64,000 nt of DNA. Source: Halobaculum marinum. Its GTDB lineage: Archaea > Halobacteriota > Halobacteria > Halobacteriales > Haloferacaceae. The stretch covers positions 2,790,001-2,854,000 of the forward strand of contig NZ_CP119989.1 in NCBI RefSeq assembly GCF_029338555.1, in the 5' to 3' direction. Shown in pieces: positions 5,585 through 27,385 of this stretch. Made by a program: the position numbers and the translations under genes. Below the pieces are notes generated by a model that saw only the letters and a list, made by a program, of their open reading frames with translations, did not search any database and was not told the origin of the DNA. Within the stretch, counting starts at the first letter, position 1, and each line of letters begins with the position of its first letter.

Positions 5585-6636
5585 CGCTCCCGACCGGTGC
5601 CGCGGCCGCCCTCGGAGCAGTCGCCGCCTCCCCGCCCGCGCCGCTGCAGTCGGGGAGCGCGCTCGACCCGGTGCTCGCACCGATCTACTACCTGCTCGAC
5701 CTGTGGTCGCTGTTGATGACCGCGCTCGGGGACGCGACGGGACTGGAACTGCTCCAGTACGGGTTCATGCACCGTGCGATCCTCGTCGGTCTCTGCATCG
5801 GGGTGATGGCGCCGCTCATCGGGACGTTCCTCGTCCACCGCCAACTGGCGCTCATCGGTGACGCGCTCGCCCACACCGCGTTCGCGGGGGTCGCCGTCGG
5901 CCTGTTCCTCAACGGCGTCTTGAGCCTCGGCGTCTCGCCGTACCTCACCGCCGTCGTGGTCGCGGTACTCGCGGCGCTGCTCATCGAGGTCATCTCCGAG
6001 GTGACCGACGCCTACAACGACGTGTCGATGGCCATCGTCCTCTCGACGGGGTTCGCCCTGGGGACGGTGCTGATCAGCCTCAACGCAGGCGGCCTCGCAG
6101 TCGGGATCAACCAGTACCTGTTCGGCAACCTCTCGACCGTCTCGGCTGAGAACGCCGCCATCCTGCTGGTGCTGTTCGCCATCATCGTCGGCACGGTCGC
6201 GCTCACGCGCAACCAACTGCTGTACGTCACCTTCGACGAGACGGCCGCGGAGGTGTCGGGCATCCCCGTGAACTGGTACAACCGCGTGATGGTGATGCTC
6301 ACCGCGCTGGTCGTCGTCGGCGCGATGCAGATCATGGGCGTCATCCTCGTCGCCGCGATGCTCGTGGTCCCGGTCGCCGGCGCCGCGCAGGTGTCGCGTA
6401 GCTTCTCGGAGTCGCTACTCGTCTCCGTCGTCCTCGCAGAACTGGCCGTACTGCTCGGTATCGGCGCCGCCTACTACGGCGAGGCGACCGCCGGGGGCGT
6501 CATCGTCCTCGTCGCCGTCGCCATCTACGCGCTCGCGGTCGTCGTCGGGAAGGTGCGCGAGGCCCGCGGCGACGACGACGCGCCCGAACTCGGGAGCATC
6601 GACGCAGACGAGGACGCGGTCGTGACCTCGGACTGA
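5581..6636 (+). CDS. Zn/Mn ABC transporter permease (ZnuB-like)
   Basis: 351-residue membrane protein of the ABC-3 family with about eight hydrophobic helices. It is coupled by an ATGA overlap to the ATPase gene. The family signature region around IGDALAHTAFAGVAVGL and the loop after it are recognisable. A charged, acidic cytoplasmic tail of about 30 residues ends the protein. Completes the operon begun at 3684. Confidence 0.92.
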   Translation: MTLPTGAAAALGAVAASPPAPLQSGSALDPVLAPIYYLLDLWSLLMTALGDATGLELLQYGFMHRAILVGLCIGVMAPLIGTFLVHRQLALIGDALAHTAFAGVAVGLFLNGVLSLGVSPYLTAVVVAVLAALLIEVISEVTDAYNDVSMAIVLSTGFALGTVLISLNAGGLAVGINQYLFGNLSTVSAENAAILLVLFAIIVGTVALTRNQLLYVTFDETAAEVSGIPVNWYNRVMVMLTALVVVGAMQIMGVILVAAMLVVPVAGAAQVSRSFSESLLVSVVLAELAVLLGIGAAYYGEATAGGVIVLVAVAIYALAVVVGKVREARGDDDAPELGSIDADEDAVVTSD

Positions 6637-8226: not shown

Positions 8227-8826
8227 ATGCCCGCCGTCTCGTTCGGACTGTTCGACACGCTCGTCGAGGCCGACCTGCCCGCCGACCCCGCCGCCGCCGT
8301 CGGCGAGGAACTTCGCGCACGCGGCGTCGCGGTTCCGGCCGACTGGAGCGACGCCTTCCACGAGACGCACGTCGACGCCCCCGCGGGCGCGGAGGTCCCA
8401 CTTCCGGCGCACGTGAGTCGTGCGCTCGCCTCGCGCGGCGTCGCCGCTCCCGGCAACGCGGCGCGACGGGCCGTCGTCGCGGCGTTCGACCCCGAGGTTC
8501 GCACGCGCGAGGGGGCCGCGGCGGCGGTGGCCACCGCTCGCGAGCGCGGACCGGTGGGACTGCTGGCGAACTGCGCGGTGCCGGAGTTGGTCGGTCGCAC
8601 GCTCGTCCGGTCGGACCTGGCGCGCGACGACTTCGACGCGGTCGTGTCGAGCGTCGCCTGCGGGTGGCGCAAACCGGACGCGCGGGCGTTCGAACGCGTC
8701 GCCGATGCGCTCGGTGTGACACCCCCGTCGCTCGTCCACGTGGGAACCGACCCCGACGTCGACGGCGCAGTGACGGGGGTCGGAGGCGAGTTCGTCGACG
8801 CCCGGGAGTCGTTCGATGGCGTGTGA
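8227..8826 (+). CDS. HAD-superfamily protein, probably non-catalytic
   Basis: 199 residues with a HAD-hydrolase layout: an N-terminal motif I region, a helical cap, motif III Lys in GWRKPDARAF and a final HVG segment. Motif I reads SFGLFDTLV where the family norm is FDLFGTL, so the nucleophile Asp and the Gly are exchanged. Motif II has ALA-type residues (LLANC) and motif IV has HVGTDPD instead of HVGDD. Catalysis therefore seems doubtful; the fold assignment is fairly sure. It stands alone between the M24 and transducer genes. Confidence 0.75.
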   Translation: MPAVSFGLFDTLVEADLPADPAAAVGEELRARGVAVPADWSDAFHETHVDAPAGAEVPLPAHVSRALASRGVAAPGNAARRAVVAAFDPEVRTREGAAAAVATARERGPVGLLANCAVPELVGRTLVRSDLARDDFDAVVSSVACGWRKPDARAFERVADALGVTPPSLVHVGTDPDVDGAVTGVGGEFVDARESFDGV

Positions 8827-21416: not shown

Positions 21417-21608
21417 GTGTTCCGAAGCGAGACGCGAGTCGCCGCGTTCGCATCCCTCGCGGCCCTTCTGGCGGTTTTCGCGGCGTTGACTGCCCACCGC
21501 GTGGTCGCGATTGGCCTGCCGTCGGGCGTCCAGTCGGCCATCGTGTGGTCGGGCGCGGCGGCGGTCGTCGCGGTCTGTGCGGCTAGAAGGCAGGCAGATA
21601 CGTTCTGA
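21417..21608 (+). CDS. Possible two-helix membrane protein
   Basis: 63 residues from a GTG; two hydrophobic helices (FASLAALLAVFAALTAH and AIVWSGAAAVVAVCAA) with a short basic end. The start is weakly supported. No family recognised. Confidence 0.5.
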   Translation: MFRSETRVAAFASLAALLAVFAALTAHRVVAIGLPSGVQSAIVWSGAAAVVAVCAARRQADTF

Positions 21609-21666
21609 ATCGGTCGGAACTGGCGATGATCGGCGTCGAGACACACCACTCAACGGCGGCGAACGA

Positions 21667-21684
21667 GCCGTGACTAGTCACGGC
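21667..21684. repeat. 18-base perfect palindrome
   Basis: GCCGTGACT followed by its exact reverse complement, with no spacer. It sits 59 bases after the small membrane gene and just ahead of the insertion sequence, at the edge of the accessory island. Confidence 0.6.
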
Positions 21685-21756
21685 GCGGGTGCTGTTGCTT
21701 CAGACCCACCGAAAGTACAACCACAGAACAGCGCCGCTGCTCACGACCGAGCTACC

Positions 21757-23729
21757 ACGAGGACAAACAGGCGTCAGTCGGGAGGGTCCAATCCGTAGAA
21801 CTTCTTCGACACGGTGAGGAACTGGTTTGCGTCAACGCGTGGCGCGTAGTCGGCCTTCTCGCCGTCGATAGCCAACTTCACCAGCAGGTCCACCAGCCGC
21901 CAGACGTTGTACAGTACACACGCGAACGCGAAGTTGAAAAAGCGATAGCCGTGGTCCTTCGACGTAGTGCGCACGCGGAACTTCTTCAGCTTCTTGTAGC
22001 CGTTCTCGATGCCCCAGCGGTACCGATACCGCCTGACGATGGTGTGAACGCCGTCGAGCAGCTCCTTGCCCGTCTCGGCTTCATCGGGCTGGAACGACGG
22101 GTGGTTTGTCTCGAAGAGCGCGTACGCCTGCGCTGCCTCGCTGTCGTCGGGGATGTCCTCCTCTTCGCGAAGGTCATCCACGAGGTCGTCGAACGGTGAG
22201 CCCCCGGCGTCGTCGGCCTCGACGATGTCGGCGAACTCGTCCACCAACTCCTGCCGGTACTCGGCTTCGTCATCGCCAACATCGGCGTCGTCGGTCGCGA
22301 ACAGGTCGTAGTTCGTTGCTGGCAGGTACATCCGCTGACGATCATTGCCCTCCACGACGGTCTTTTGCGTCTTTACGTGGACGCGCTTCCCTGAGTTACG
22401 CATCCGGCGACACGTCGCCTTCTCCGAGGCGTGCTTTCGCGCCGGGTTCAGGTAGTGGACGCCGTGGTTGTCGCACACGTCTTTGATGTCGTCCGAGTCG
22501 AACTCACGGTCCATCATCACGAGGTCGATCCCGCCGACGAGATCGAGTGCGTTCCCGAGGAGTTCGTCCACGATGTCTGCCCGCGAGAAGCCACGGTGGA
22601 CGGGAACGGCGTCGAGGACGAGCGGGATGTCGTGCCCGACTACTTGGATGGTCGCCCACTGGAAGTGCTTCTCGCCGCCCTTGTAGCCGAGTATCCACGG
22701 TTCGGTCAGGTTTCCGTCCTCGTCGCGTTCGCTCTCGCCAGTCCACGGTGCCCCCTTCGTGATGTCGATGGCGACGGTGAGCTTTCCGACCAGTTCGGAG
22801 TCATGGCGAGCGCGGGCTATCAACGCGGCCGTTGTTTCCCGCAGCATCGACCGTATCTCCTCGACAGAGTGTTTCTGAAGCTGGTAGCGGTGGTTCGACG
22901 CACTCGGCGTCAGGTCGCGCTCGCTGTCGATGAAAAACGAGTGCTGCCCAGATTGTGCGAACATATCCTCGCGCATCCCCATGTAGGCATGCTGCTCCCA
23001 GAACGCATTCTCGTGAATGCTGGCGTTCGATCCGCGGTTGAGGTGGAAGTTGTCTGTGACGAACGGCTTTGTCTGCTTCCACACTTCTTTGGTTTTCTCA
23101 GCGAGGAGTTTCTGTTCGCCCGGTTCGCTGTCGATATCACGGTCTTCTACTTTGAACGGGCCTTTCGGCAACGGAAAATTGTGCTCGCAGAGCGTGAGAT
23201 AGACGCTTTGGGCGATCTCCTGACAAAGCTCACGTTCAACGGGACTAAACACTTCATTCCACACTTCCCAGAGCCGTGACTGACTAGGCCGCTTCGGTGT
23301 AAAGCGCCCGAGACCGCCGCCGTCACCGACGAAGCCGAACTTGCGTGTGTACTCGGGATTGTCATGGAACCACCGCGAGAGACGGTCTTCTCCCCAATCT
23401 CTCAGTAGCCGGTACGTGTGGGCGAGTACCCACACGTTCAGTTGTTTCGTGTTACGATGCCACTCAGAGCGCTCGTCTACCCACCCGCCAGAGATGGTCG
23501 GATAATCGCCAGAGACAACATCCATCTCGGCGATAATGTCCGCCACTTCAGGTCGATCGTGACTGTGATAGTGGTATTCAGCATGCCAGAGGAGTTCCTT
23601 TCCTCTGTACTGTTCTGGGTGGTCGTCATCAACCCGGACGTTCAGCCGGCCGCTCTCGTATAAGTAGATGCGGCCCGCGTTGTCCGTCCGGGGTTGTGAG
23701 GGCACAGTCGGCTCTCAATTTGTCCTAGT
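21757..23729. mobile_element. IS4-type insertion sequence (ends tentative)
   Basis: Contains one large transposase gene. The best candidate terminal inverted repeat is ACGAGGACAAA (21757-21767) against the reverse complement of 23719-23729 (ACTAGGACAAA), 10 of 11 matching. No convincing target duplication abuts these ends. A direct repeat AAGTACAA occurs further out at 21713-21720 and 23763-23770, an alternative boundary of about 2.04 kb but without matching inverted ends. Confidence 0.5.
21774..23705 (-). CDS. DDE transposase, IS4 type
   Basis: 643 residues. The IS4 signature Y-x2-R-x3-E-x6-K is exact in YRYRWGIENGYKKLK near the C-terminus, with Asp residues in TVAIDITKGAP and VMMDREFDSDD completing the DDE triad. 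It is longer than most haloarchaeal IS4-group transposases because of an N-terminal region of about 300 residues and an acidic insertion (about 480-540). The frame is intact, so the element could be active. GC content is lower than in host genes. Confidence 0.88.
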   Translation of the reverse strand: MPSQPRTDNAGRIYLYESGRLNVRVDDDHPEQYRGKELLWHAEYHYHSHDRPEVADIIAEMDVVSGDYPTISGGWVDERSEWHRNTKQLNVWVLAHTYRLLRDWGEDRLSRWFHDNPEYTRKFGFVGDGGGLGRFTPKRPSQSRLWEVWNEVFSPVERELCQEIAQSVYLTLCEHNFPLPKGPFKVEDRDIDSEPGEQKLLAEKTKEVWKQTKPFVTDNFHLNRGSNASIHENAFWEQHAYMGMREDMFAQSGQHSFFIDSERDLTPSASNHRYQLQKHSVEEIRSMLRETTAALIARARHDSELVGKLTVAIDITKGAPWTGESERDEDGNLTEPWILGYKGGEKHFQWATIQVVGHDIPLVLDAVPVHRGFSRADIVDELLGNALDLVGGIDLVMMDREFDSDDIKDVCDNHGVHYLNPARKHASEKATCRRMRNSGKRVHVKTQKTVVEGNDRQRMYLPATNYDLFATDDADVGDDEAEYRQELVDEFADIVEADDAGGSPFDDLVDDLREEEDIPDDSEAAQAYALFETNHPSFQPDEAETGKELLDGVHTIVRRYRYRWGIENGYKKLKKFRVRTTSKDHGYRFFNFAFACVLYNVWRLVDLLVKLAIDGEKADYAPRVDANQFLTVSKKFYGLDPPD

Positions 23730-23899
23730 GTATAAGCTAATCGACGGTTGGCATCTAAACCCAAGTACAATGGCGATTCTGCCCTGTTGAATTACTCGAA
23801 GACTACCATTTCTAGGAGTCTGCTCACTGTATACAGATGAACCACTAAACCGCTACGTACAGGTAGACGACTAATCACGGAAGCACGAGAAACGGTCAA

Positions 23900-24415
23900 T
23901 CACAAACTAAGAATTCCCTCTCTGACGAAGTGGCCGAATCCAGCGGCGATGCCTGCCAGAACGGAGAGGACTAGTACGATGATCGTCGTGAGTCCACCCC
24001 CGAGAATGCCGGAAATGACCAGTATCACTACGGTCCCGACGGCACCTTCGAGGGCTAACGGGACGAGAAACACTATCGCGATGAAAAGTACTCCGAGGAG
24101 TGCTGGCACGAGGAGCGACGCAACACCGGCCACGTATCCTCGTATCATCGCTCCTCTTGAATCCCCAGAGTAGAGCCCGCCGGTGACGAATCCACTCACG
24201 AGCAGGCTGGCGAGGAATCCGACGACATTGAACTCCGCGGGAGATATCTCCCTTATCTGGTCTGGGATCCGTGACATGAGCCATGACCATTGCCCGGACT
24301 GACCCATTATCTCTGGAAGATAGACCCACGTGAGGAATCCGAGAAGTGCACCTATAGCGATGATGAGGGCGTCATATTTGTCGAATCTATCCGTGTAGTC
24401 ATGTAGACGTTTCAT
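23900..24415 (-). CDS. Orphan membrane protein of the island
   Basis: 171 residues with about four hydrophobic helices; no family recognised. It lies between the IS and the first intergenic repeat. Lower GC and relaxed codon use compared with the flanks suggest transfer. Confidence 0.65.
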   Translation of the reverse strand: MKRLHDYTDRFDKYDALIIAIGALLGFLTWVYLPEIMGQSGQWSWLMSRIPDQIREISPAEFNVVGFLASLLVSGFVTGGLYSGDSRGAMIRGYVAGVASLLVPALLGVLFIAIVFLVPLALEGAVGTVVILVISGILGGGLTTIIVLVLSVLAGIAAGFGHFVREGILSL

Positions 24416-24721
24416 TTCGGGCGTGGCTAATAGCAGGAGTGATCGTCCAAGAGTCGTGGAGACCGAGGTTCAAGGGTGCATTTGCTCATACATCTGCTTC
24501 AGGTTCAATCCCCGTCAATAGTCGCTTCGTACTCATAGGTTAGTCCGATGATCGATAACTAAGCACACCTACTGATCGGCTGTTTCACACCAAATCTGGT
24601 GGCTTGAACACCCTCGATGTGGTGTGTCTCTTCGGTAAGTACAGGGCACGTAGTTCACATCGCTTCCGATTGACCGATACAGCATGAATAATTATAGCGG
24701 GAAATCGCGTGATCACCAATT
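24416..24721. other. 306-base intergenic region holding repeat copy 1
   Basis: AT-richer than the chromosome average. It contains repeat copy 1 (24560-24647) and, after it, an AATAATTATA promoter-like stretch near 24686-24696 that would serve the next gene at leaderless spacing. No coding potential seen in the remainder. Confidence 0.6.
24560..24647 (+). repeat. Intergenic repeat, copy 1 (88 bases)
   Basis: Starts TAAGCACACCTACTGA, has CGGCTGTTTCACACC in its first third and TTCGGTAAGTACAGGGC at its end. Internal CACACCA and TGGTGTG can pair. It matches copies at 25220-25294 and 25963-26051 in the same orientation. Confidence 0.85.
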
Positions 24722-25186
24722 ATGTCGAAGGGTGAGGTAGATGTACTGCCAGAGGGACCGAAGCGTTCTCGTCGAATTCGACTTCTTCTACACTTGGGTG
24801 AGGGTCTTTTCGGAGGCGTTATTCTCTATGTGGGGGTGTCTTTCGGGTACGAATTCTTTACGGACATTTTGTCCGGGCCTGATTCAGTATTTATCGGACT
24901 CTGGATAGTTGTTCTCTCGCTTATATCATTCAGAGTGGCTATTCTGGTAGCTACACGAAGTGCAAATCTCCAGAGCTCAGATCGATTCACCAATGAATGG
25001 CGCGAAGTTCGCAGTTGGCCCATCGTCGTAAGTGTCGCGCTTGTAGCTGGAACAGTACTGATGCTGGGTGAACTATGGTATTTCAGCAGAGATTATGCAT
25101 CTCCGAGCCCCTTCTTTCTCATCGGCATAACTATTGCGCTCATTCTAATGGGAAGTGCATACTATCTCCGCTCGGAGGATCGATGA
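24722..25186 (+). CDS. Orphan membrane protein between repeats 1 and 2
   Basis: 154 residues with four hydrophobic helices and a basic N-terminal segment (KRSRRIRLLL). No family recognised. Low GC. It is the only gene between repeat copies 1 and 2, the stop being 33 bases before copy 2. Confidence 0.7.
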   Translation: MSKGEVDVLPEGPKRSRRIRLLLHLGEGLFGGVILYVGVSFGYEFFTDILSGPDSVFIGLWIVVLSLISFRVAILVATRSANLQSSDRFTNEWREVRSWPIVVSVALVAGTVLMLGELWYFSRDYASPSPFFLIGITIALILMGSAYYLRSEDR

Positions 25187-25219
25187 CTCAACACGAGACA
25201 TTACGGTAGATACGCAGAT

Positions 25220-25294
25220 CTACTCAGCGGCTGTTTCACACCAAATCAAGTGGTGAGAACTCGCCTCAATGGTGTGTCTCTTCGGTAAGTACAG
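25220..25294 (+). repeat. Intergenic repeat, copy 2 (75 bases)
   Basis: Lacks the first AAGCACAC segment of copies 1 and 3 but shares TACTCAGCGGCTGTTTCAC through TTCGGTAAGTACAG. The CACACCA/TGGTGTG pair is exact. Confidence 0.85.
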
Positions 25295-25332
25295 ACAAAG
25301 CACTTACCGGAGGGGTTTGGAAAGTTCTCGAA

Positions 25333-25947
25333 ATGAAACGCCGCCATGCCCTCCTCGCTGGCAGTAGTTGTATTGGTACGCTATTGAGTGGTTGTTTGGG
25401 TGGCACCTCGGAGCCGTCAACGGGAACAGGATCTCCGTCACCGAATGAGACACAAAGCAATACTTCGACCCAGACAGTAACAGAAACTCCTGTATATGAT
25501 TGTAAGACTACTCACCGACCGCCGGAACCGTCATCCGACGATGACCCGCCGGGCGAGGACGAGCGATACACCTATCCACAGCGCCCGGAGTCCTTGACGG
25601 ATGAATCAACACTTCTCTCCTACGTAAAGGAGTACGAACGCGCGTACCGGCTAAACGATCTATACACCGAATACGGGGACAATCTTGACCATGGGACTAT
25701 TTTCATCTACGAGACATGGACCTACGAGGCTCCGGAAGACGCGGCGATTGCACGTCTGAAGTGTCCGTACAGTCATGGATATACTCAGGGTGACAGCCAA
25801 GTCGAGGCTGATTCACCGACCATCTATGCCTCCTACTACATCGACGACGCTGTGGTACTTCGAGCAAGTAAAACCGGGTACCAAGAGGATGAGTCGAAAC
25901 TGGATCCTGATCCAATCGAATGGGGACTTCCTATGGAGTGTTTCTAA
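25333..25947 (+). CDS. Orphan lipoprotein between repeats 2 and 3
   Basis: 204 residues. Signal MKRRHALLAGS with lipobox LLSGC, modified Cys21, followed by a Ser/Thr-rich linker and an acidic domain with a few Cys (YDCKTTH, RLKCPYSHG, MECF) that could form disulfides outside the cell. No family recognised. Only gene between repeat copies 2 and 3; the stop lies 15 bases before copy 3. Confidence 0.75.
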   Translation: MKRRHALLAGSSCIGTLLSGCLGGTSEPSTGTGSPSPNETQSNTSTQTVTETPVYDCKTTHRPPEPSSDDDPPGEDERYTYPQRPESLTDESTLLSYVKEYERAYRLNDLYTEYGDNLDHGTIFIYETWTYEAPEDAAIARLKCPYSHGYTQGDSQVEADSPTIYASYYIDDAVVLRASKTGYQEDESKLDPDPIEWGLPMECF

Positions 25948-25962
25948 GTTCTTGGCGCTCAA

Positions 25963-26051
25963 TAAGCACACCTACTGAGCGGCTGTTTCACACCAAATCA
26001 GATGGTGAGGGCCCGCCTCGATGTGGTGGATCGCTTCGCTAAGTACAGGGC
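25963..26051 (+). repeat. Intergenic repeat, copy 3 (89 bases)
   Basis: Matches copy 1 from TAAGCACACC to ACAGGGC with scattered substitutions; the TGGTGTG arm has changed to TGGTGGA, so its internal pairing is weaker. Confidence 0.85.
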
Positions 26052-26121
26052 GCTAATTGGTCACCGGGCACGCGTCTGGAGAAAAGCGGTCACGTTGGTA
26101 GAGACAGGTGAGTGGATTGGA

Positions 26122-26676
26122 TCAACCACACCCGTATGAGGCGATGAGATCTCCCGGGGGGGTGGTACGGACAGCCAATTCCAGTCCGACCAACGGTCGT
26201 CCGGCACAGTTCGCGATCGTCAATTCGATCACCCTCCCTCGTTCTGAAAAGCTGATTACTATCGAAGAGCCGATAGTGAAGTTCTCGATTAGAAGTTGCT
26301 CCGTTTCTTTGGGAGACAGTGTGTACTGACCGTGGAGTCGGGAGCGGTTTGGCGGTGGTTCGACCGACGTCACGTACCCGTAATCCCCACCGATTTGGTA
26401 GGTCGAAAGCCCCTCGCCGGGCGATGCGTGATCGACTTCACCGTTCTTCTTGTAAATAGTGATGCTATCGGGGTGAACCTCTCCACTGACTACCCACACG
26501 GTGAATGTGTGAGTCTCGTCTACTGAATTATTGAGTACAACTGTGACTGGACGTTCTTGTTCGGATGGGCCACCGAACGGTAAGGCGGCACACCCTGCAA
26601 TGAGGAGTAGGAGGCACAGACCGAGTAGAGAGAGGTACTGGTTACTCCGAGCGACACCGGTACTAAGACTGCTCAT
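26122..26676 (-). CDS. Orphan lipoprotein
   Basis: 184 residues. Sec-type hydrophobic signal with lipobox LIAGC (Cys29). The rest looks beta-rich (PVTVVLNNSVDETHTF, YTLSPKETEQLLIE), like small immunoglobulin-fold lipoproteins of haloarchaea. No named family recognised. Faces repeat copy 3 from the other side. Confidence 0.7.
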   Translation of the reverse strand: MSSLSTGVARSNQYLSLLGLCLLLLIAGCAALPFGGPSEQERPVTVVLNNSVDETHTFTVWVVSGEVHPDSITIYKKNGEVDHASPGEGLSTYQIGGDYGYVTSVEPPPNRSRLHGQYTLSPKETEQLLIENFTIGSSIVISFSERGRVIELTIANCAGRPLVGLELAVRTTPPGDLIASYGCG

Positions 26677-26823
26677 TCAACGGGATGAAATCTGAGTCCC
26701 GGATTGTTGTTATATGTGAGCTACACGACCGACAGGTTTGCAGATCTTCTTCTCTGTCATTCCACCATATATAATATGTAATTAATACCAGTTCACAGAG
26801 CGATCCAAGCGATTCAGACGTAC

Positions 26824-27075
26824 GTGCCTGTCTTCAGTGCGGCGATTTCATATCGCGGTGGACAGTTTATCATCGGTTGGATCGTCGCCATTGGCCCGGT
26901 ACTCGGGTTCGCGTGGACGCTCCCATTCACGCTCGTAGGCGGCGATCAGCGGCTTTCGGTCTCCGTGTTCGCGTACACGGGGGTCGGTGGTGTGCTGGCG
27001 GCGACTGTGCTCGCGGCCATGGGATTCGCAGCCGGTCGCGTCGCGGCCGACGCGGTCTCGACAGTAGATCGCTGA
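26824..27075 (+). CDS. Possible two-helix membrane protein
   Basis: 83 residues, GTG start. Two hydrophobic helices (IIGWIVAIGPVLGFAWTLPF and GVGGVLAATVLAAMGFAAG). AT-rich sequence (TATATAATATG) about 55-60 bases upstream could be its promoter. GC is closer to host than the island genes before it. Confidence 0.5.
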   Translation: MPVFSAAISYRGGQFIIGWIVAIGPVLGFAWTLPFTLVGGDQRLSVSVFAYTGVGGVLAATVLAAMGFAAGRVAADAVSTVDR

Positions 27076-27138: not shown

Positions 27139-27166
27139 GAGAAGCGCCGAGGGAGAGATTTGAACT
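27139..27166. repeat. Duplicated tRNA-Ser 3' end (attachment-site-like)
   Basis: 28 bases identical to 27295-27322, which cover the T arm to the 3' end of the tRNA-Ser plus 6 flanking bases. The copy cannot form a tRNA. Such a duplication is what integrases leave when an element inserts at a tRNA 3' end. Confidence 0.75.
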
Positions 27167-27300
27167 TCACCGAGACGGTCGCTCGCTCTCTCCGTTCGCT
27201 CGCGCTGCGACTCGTCGGTTCACATCGTCTCACACCGTCGACACCGACGACACGGGATGCGAGCACACGAGGTGCTCGCCGTGTGGTGTCGTCTGAGAAG

Positions 27301-27385
27301 CGCCGAGGGAGAGATTTGAACTCCCGAGTCCGAATGGACAGCAGATTTCGAATCTGCCGCCTTGGCCAGGCTAGGCTACCTCGGC
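27301..27385 (-). tRNA. tRNA-Ser (anticodon CGA)
   Basis: 85 nt, class II. Acceptor GCCGAGG pairs with CCTCGGC, discriminator G; anticodon stem GCAGA/TCTGC around loop TTCGAAA gives CGA; long variable arm TGTCCATTCGGACT; T arm GGGAG-TTCAAAT-CTCTC. CCA is not encoded. It reads UCG codons, frequent in this high-GC genome. Confidence 0.96.

Follow-up and report, generated by a model that had tools for sequence, protein, structure and literature searches.

A gene-cassette array carried by a transposon of Halobaculum marinum and its counterparts in Halobacteriales

Cassette arrays are known above all from integrons, their textbook example. In the genome of Halobaculum marinum, a direct repeat of 81-83 nt alternates with single genes. 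A preliminary description compared this arrangement to integron cassettes with attC-like folded sites, and named a MITE family that prefers gene ends as an alternative. The question raised by this locus is which kind of element frames these genes, and how the genes came to be assembled. The window, that is, the whole stretch of DNA analyzed, comprises 64,000 nt (GCF_029338555.1, NZ_CP119989.1, positions 2,790,001-2,854,000), and all coordinates given below are relative to it.

The window array and its transposon

A profile search placed three copies of the repeat, hereafter called the joint, on the plus strand at 24563..24644 (82 nt), 25214..25294 (81 nt), and 25966..26048 (83 nt), with E-values between 2e-25 and 1e-21 when a stretch of 12 kb was searched. 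A search of the whole 3.5-Mb genome returned no copy beyond these three. The direct repeats of the preliminary description are therefore real; the second begins at 25214, 6 nt to the left of the 25220 given there. In this genome, the copies were neither scattered at random nor matched to both ends of a known insertion sequence, the two outcomes that the description had named as speaking against an array. The two framed genes, described as a membrane protein and a lipoprotein, correspond to cassette genes 2 (24722..25186, plus strand, 154-aa membrane protein) and 3 (25333..25947, plus strand, 204-aa lipoprotein, Tat-type). Each is closely followed by a repeat, as had been reported, with the joints starting 27 and 18 nt downstream of the respective stop.

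Several features had been overlooked: two further cargo genes, a transposase, inverted repeats, a target duplication, and a split host gene, and with them the fact that a transposon, for which congeners have an empty site, carries the array as its cargo. The additional genes encode a 171-aa membrane protein (cassette 1, 23900..24415, minus strand) and a 184-aa lipoprotein-like protein (cassette 4, 26122..26676, minus strand). The cargo thus consists of four membrane protein or lipoprotein genes and three joints. No transposition domain was found in any of the four cargo genes.

The whole element spans 5,253 bp (21584..26836). It is flanked by two copies of the 7-bp duplication GTGCGGC (21577..21583 and 26837..26843) and bordered by terminal inverted repeats of about 33 bp, the left one (TAGAAGGCAGGCAGATACGTTCTGAATCGGTCGGA) at 21584..21618 on the plus strand and the right one (reverse complement TGAAGACAGGCACGTACGTCTGAATCGCTTGGA) at 26804..26836 on the minus strand. 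The insertion splits a host membrane-protein gene into a 5' part (21417..21608, plus strand), the reading frame of which runs on into the transposon, and a 3' part (26837..27075, plus strand). In congeners, the sequences to the left of approximately 21.57 kb and to the right of approximately 26.85 kb lie near each other. They are contiguous in the congener G004, in which the host gene is unbroken and forms a single, uninterrupted 135-codon ORF (L177:1032-1439). Judged by these borders, the element is a transposon with its own transposase, inverted repeats, a 7-bp duplication, and an empty site in a congener.

The transposase is a DDE enzyme of 643 aa (21774..23705, minus strand; DDE_Tnp_1, PF01609, E = 1.2e-10) with a weak likeness to ISH3. 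Assignment to the ISH3 family was rejected, as the NCBIfam ISH3 model scored 80 bits against a cut-off of 225. The cassette region starts with a left inner end at 23781..23837 (plus strand), which has a degenerate core (...CACTGTATACAG); its profile score is weak (E = 0.009) and its position agrees with that in relatives. The candidate right inner end (26760..26801, plus strand) is very degenerate and uncertain, with a weak profile E-value of 0.5.

Homologous transposons were identified at loci L187-L193, with transposases 58-62% identical to that of the window and inverted repeats of the same family. Their target duplications are 7-8 bp long; that of L187 (ACCCAAG, 7 bp) is exact, and others have one mismatch. 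Most of these relatives hold one to three small genes, chiefly for membrane proteins or lipoproteins, and lack the joint. As the homologues share inverted repeats and small cargo, the window element is a multi-cassette member of a cargo-bearing transposon family. Within the wider group of long transposases, terminal repeats were detected only for close homologues of the window's transposase.

Outside the transposon, an exact 28-nt direct repeat occurs at 27139-27166 and 27295-27322. A tRNA gene (27301-27385, minus strand) has the right copy at its edge, and the left copy, 156 bp off, resembles a partial copy of the tRNA 3' end. The pair looks like what a past integration event leaves behind.

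Joint family and arrays in Halobacteriales

The profile search detected the joint in 62 of 392 Halobacteriales genomes, representing 28 of 95 genera, and a search with one sequence detected it in 60 of the 392. Among plasmids, 29 records contained joints, pNRC100 and pNRC200 of Halobacterium salinarum being two of them. A phage collection contained no match, Rfam none either, and an exact 19-mer scan of genome contigs yielded five chance-like bacterial matches and nothing else. The consensus reads GCACACCTACTGAGCGGCTGTTTCACTCCAAATCAGCTGGTGAGAACCCGCCTCGATGTGGTGAGTcGCTTCGGTAAGTACAG, with the conserved core CGGTMAGTACAG, a middle part (GAGAACCC) that is conserved across genera, and a terminal core CGGTMAGTAC followed by AG. 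The imperfect dyad symmetry noticed earlier is genuine: alignment of more than 100 copies revealed that the conserved stretch continues beyond the joint on both sides, with the inverted pair CGATAAAT (left) and ATTTATCG (right).

A joint-bearing stretch of at least 1.6 kb was more than 99% identical among L042 (pNRC100), L075, L092, L106, and L107, which belong to three families (f12, f17, f7); identity at this level across families implies either very recent transfer or contamination. Separately, identical joint surroundings (L161/L162) lie near both ends (~41.8 kb and 260.2 kb) of the 265-kb contig G004:C2, and the pattern is repeated in G108:C2 (99.7%). A duplication could account for these twin surroundings, as could an unresolved circular overlap.

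Joints frequently occur in tandem, with up to eight sites in one array (L066) and six, four, and three in others (L069, L067, and L070, respectively). Spacing within arrays is typically 230-1300 bp, usually with one gene in between. Among pairs of neighboring joints less than 1.5 kb apart, 39 of 42 share the same orientation. The upstream gene lies on the same strand as the joint in 79 cases and on the opposite strand in 64, so that a common orientation of gene and repeat, as seen in the two genes first described, does not hold as a rule over all copies.

The cargo has a distinct character. Between like-oriented neighboring joints, 32 of 37 genes encode predicted lipoproteins or membrane proteins, vs. 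148 of the 469 genes that these loci hold elsewhere (p = 4e-11; genes called with a simple composition-based caller, in a locus set that includes near-identical copies). Pfam and PADLOC searches of the cargo returned almost no assignments; one cassette outside the window encodes a pyridoxamine-phosphate oxidase-like protein. Several same-strand genes begin 35-39 nt after a joint, just downstream of a purine-rich stretch plus ATTTATCG that resembles an archaeal promoter (BRE/TATA), and we infer from this motif that each cassette brings its own promoter.

Cassette exchange and the nature of the joint

Homologous cassette bodies recur beside different neighbors and in different contexts. Their left breakpoints are in most cases inside TTCGGTAAGTACAG, at -2 to -13 nt as counted from where the upstream joint ends. 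Pairs that are identical to the right of the break (L075 vs. L107, L106, and L092) break at -2, at GTAC/AG. A few left boundaries lie at +4 to +9, where other insertion sequences are involved. The right breakpoints are varied: some coincide with the start of the joint, some lie within it, and others just past its end. A unit of 223 bp without a gene, made up of 143 nt and a joint, is present at two chromosomal places in G271; its left border is GGTCAGTAC/AG or GGTCAATAC/AG (GGTCARTAC/AG) and its right end is its own core. No empty site for this unit was found, nor a congener with both flanks.

Two Halobacterium loci, L066 and L103, share their chromosomal flanks (93.6% identity over 4.1 kb and 92.8% over 2.9 kb) and carry different cassettes between them. 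Two cassettes that adjoin in L103 are separated in L066 by 954 bp and two sites. The two arrays differ by several cassettes, and near-identical arrays differing by exactly one were not found. The recurring cassettes, the G271 unit, and the comparison of L066 with L103 are hallmarks of a cassette array whose content can be exchanged. Together with the like orientation of the joints, they bear out the earlier suggestion of a cassette-like array whose genes differ between genomes. At the level of sequence comparison, arrays, cassette exchange, and transposition of an array as cargo are demonstrated. So is the spread of this array type and its joint through Halobacteriales: such arrays ride on the window's type of transposon and on others, reside on plasmids, and occupy fixed positions in chromosomes, and they have exchanged cassettes with one another.

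These findings bear on two simpler readings. The repeat might be a MITE-like mobile element that inserts after gene ends, the genes between the copies being bystanders; its imperfect inverted repeats, intergenic position, length of 81-84 nt, and wide distribution would suit such an element. A solitary MITE is disfavored because gene bodies move, recurring with different joints and flanks, and because joints within an array are like-oriented (39:3 among neighbors). Moreover, the window genome holds three copies only, all in one array, and of the duplicated gene-less unit of G271, 143 nt lie outside the repeat. A precise empty site was not found for any single joint, the flanks of which show the conserved CGATAAAT/ATTTATCG dyad. 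We consider the MITE reading very improbable. Still less credible is a purely regulatory repeat, a divergent promoter, operator, or terminator copied along with its neighbors and only incidentally mobile. The promoter-like motif and the several same-strand genes that start at a similar distance after the joint agree with such a role, which would nevertheless leave unexplained both the cassette bodies that swap end types at the core and the duplicated G271 unit.

Tandem one-gene cassettes, like-oriented sites, and variable content are integron-like traits. On this basis, the joints could be attC sites of a cluster without an integrase (CALIN), given also the dyad site after each cassette, the breakpoints at the 3' core, and the variable content at a fixed place. 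Folding does not agree with this. In 97 joints, native sequences reached -12.17 kcal/mol vs. -12.07 kcal/mol for chimeras of halves from different joints (p = 0.41 for the top strand, 0.32 for the bottom strand), so that no selection for folding is apparent and the attC-like folding proposed at first is not borne out. No covarying column pairs were detected in the 97 joints. RNAalifold found no pairs in the joint alignment, and the covariance model was therefore sequence-only. Unlike in attC, the primary sequence is conserved. By inspection, the GTTRRRY and RYYYAAC boxes are missing from the joint consensus, and no match to the integrase family PF00589 was obtained near the window array, as the preliminary description had noted. 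Since folding is not conserved and no integrase lies beside the window array, it is not an integron, and a true integron appears to us the least probable explanation.

The preliminary description had advised looking for a tyrosine recombinase in joint-bearing genomes. Those near arrays in relatives are scattered without consistent linkage, and most arrays have no linked recombinase. The pNRC100 integrase family was rejected as a fixed partner, as it is widespread and not tied to arrays. Members of the long DDE transposase family lie upstream of arrays pointing away from them in 12 cases and toward them in none (about nine independent), and downstream of arrays in six cases. On plasmids of at least six genera, eight of eight loci (L169-L176) have a long DDE transposase of ~557 aa followed by a same-strand gene for a SAM-like tyrosine recombinase, usually with small genes in between, often HTH and small hypothetical ones. 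This transposase and recombinase possibly form a conserved module.

Joints also have a second carrier, an IS5-type element that has GGCTCTGTTGAAATCC inverted repeats and makes perfect 8-bp duplications. In L105, L139, and L159, a joint lies within such an element. The joints were not seen to follow the presence of an IS5-type transposase, and the window genome has none at E <= 1e-80. An autonomous member of the IS5 family (L072:1667-2970) has the 8-bp duplication AGAATGAC and a gene for a 90-aa membrane protein downstream of the transposase. The inner ends of IS5-type elements recognizably match the two halves of the joint, and the joint thus resembles the fusion product of one right and one left inner end. 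The left type of IS5 inner end (GGCTCTGTTGAAA... to GGTCGGTAAGTACAG) was also observed away from complete joints (L068:15574-, L074:7665+), and single-cassette elements may therefore far outnumber the arrays counted here. Half-joints with a cassette are further located near tRNA-Thr(GGT) in five genomes (L140, L148, L160, L164, and L165), around locus position 6000 and, in L165, also at 8488. Ribbon-helix-helix toxin-antitoxin-like genes adjoin these half-joints in several of the five genomes, and some half-sites lie in islands with tRNA-Thr at their borders. A second copy of the tRNA 3' end after the cassette in L140 and L160 suggests small integrative islands.

The match of the inner ends gives rise to the strongest competing explanation, in which the joint is a pair of fused transposon ends, the right inner end of one element and the left inner end of the next. 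Arrays would then grow by tandem or nested transposition and be reshuffled by homologous recombination between conserved ends, with no dedicated cassette recombinase. Joint halves do occur apart, as inner ends of elements with 8-bp duplications; the joint middle GAGAACCC has the length of such a duplication (8 nt); some isolated half-sites abut GAGAACCC-like flanks; and right breakpoints are often at the joint start. The spread of the right breakpoints also fits homologous recombination or gene conversion between joints. However, the middle, being conserved across genera, is no random target duplication, and the left breakpoints fall in a core of ~13 nt common to otherwise unlike left ends, which is too short for ordinary recombination. 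We regard fused ends as an unlikely, though serious, explanation.

The reading that we favor, and hold to be reasonably likely, is that a 5.25-kb DDE transposon carries the three repeats as joints within its cargo and that cassettes are exchanged by double-stranded site-specific recombination at the core. The joint itself is probably a double-stranded site that recombines site-specifically. A cassette would begin at the AG after the CGGTMAGTAC core of one joint, include the gene, and finish with the core of the joint that belongs to it. Conservative site-specific recombination of double-stranded DNA at this core would bring the cassette in or release it, next to another core in an array or at a transposon inner end, and the transposase would then move the finished array as one unit. 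Candidate recombinases are the tyrosine recombinases beside the related long transposase in relatives or, alternatively, the transposase acting on its subterminal motifs. A broader version of this scheme is put forward more tentatively, as a possibility somewhat short of an even chance: haloarchaea may own an integron-independent gene-cassette system with a double-stranded attachment site of ~83 nt (~107 nt with the outer dyad) and a dedicated recombinase, in which self-promoted envelope-protein cassettes are inserted at GTMAGTAC/AG and several unrelated transposon families use the cores as cargo docks.

Relation to known systems and significance

The system resembles integron arrays (attC/IntI) and CALINs in its tandem single-gene cassettes with a dyad site, its variable content at a fixed place, a crossover that appears to lie close to the site's 3' end, and the ability to ride on transposons. 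It differs in that the joint is conserved in sequence and not in fold, and in that IntI, attI, and the GTTRRRY core are lacking. Furthermore, joint cassettes seem to carry promoters, and their cargo is mostly lipoproteins and membrane proteins.

Insertion sequences that carry passenger genes are called transporter IS, and the ISfinder nomenclature also has the term mobile insertion cassettes (PMC3129680). The window element shares with transporter IS a DDE transposon, inverted repeats, a target duplication, and cargo unrelated to transposition, but its cargo consists of several genes in an array that has a conserved joint of its own, and the cassettes are common to unrelated transposon types. 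The haloarchaeal IS5-family elements (NCBIfam transpos_IS5_2, GGCTCTGTTGAAATCC inverted repeats) have inner ends homologous to the joint halves, 8-bp duplications and, in several cases, a single membrane-protein cargo gene, whereas the window transposon belongs to a different DDE type, has other inverted repeats, and is flanked by a 7-bp duplication. In Halobacterium salinarum, the MITEs MITEHsal1 and MITEHsal2 (~413 bp, 8-bp duplication) have been described (PMC10264941). Like the elements discussed here, these are small, non-autonomous, and haloarchaeal, and MITEHsal2, compared by its description in the accessible part of that report, is close in size to L075:14033-14449; the same part describes no cassette arrays for either (PMC10264941).

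A published description of a cassette array with this joint was not found in the open-access literature. The best reading is to class the system with cargo-bearing transposons, with exchangeable cassette arrays that are new to the open-access literature searched. A separate cassette recombinase, if true, would make it a new kind of system.

Archaeal integrons have been described in metagenome-assembled genomes of nine phyla and, according to the accessible part of the survey, only in such genomes; Halobacteria or halophiles are not mentioned in that part (PMC9668308). A cassette system distributed over Halobacteriales, among them genera that can be cultured, and carried by pNRC100/pNRC200 of the model strain Halobacterium salinarum NRC-1, would mean that archaea have a way comparable to integrons of exchanging genes among plasmids, chromosomes, and families. 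The predominance of small membrane proteins and lipoproteins in the cargo suggests a fast turnover of the cell envelope, which, speculatively, may be tied to interactions with viruses or halocins.
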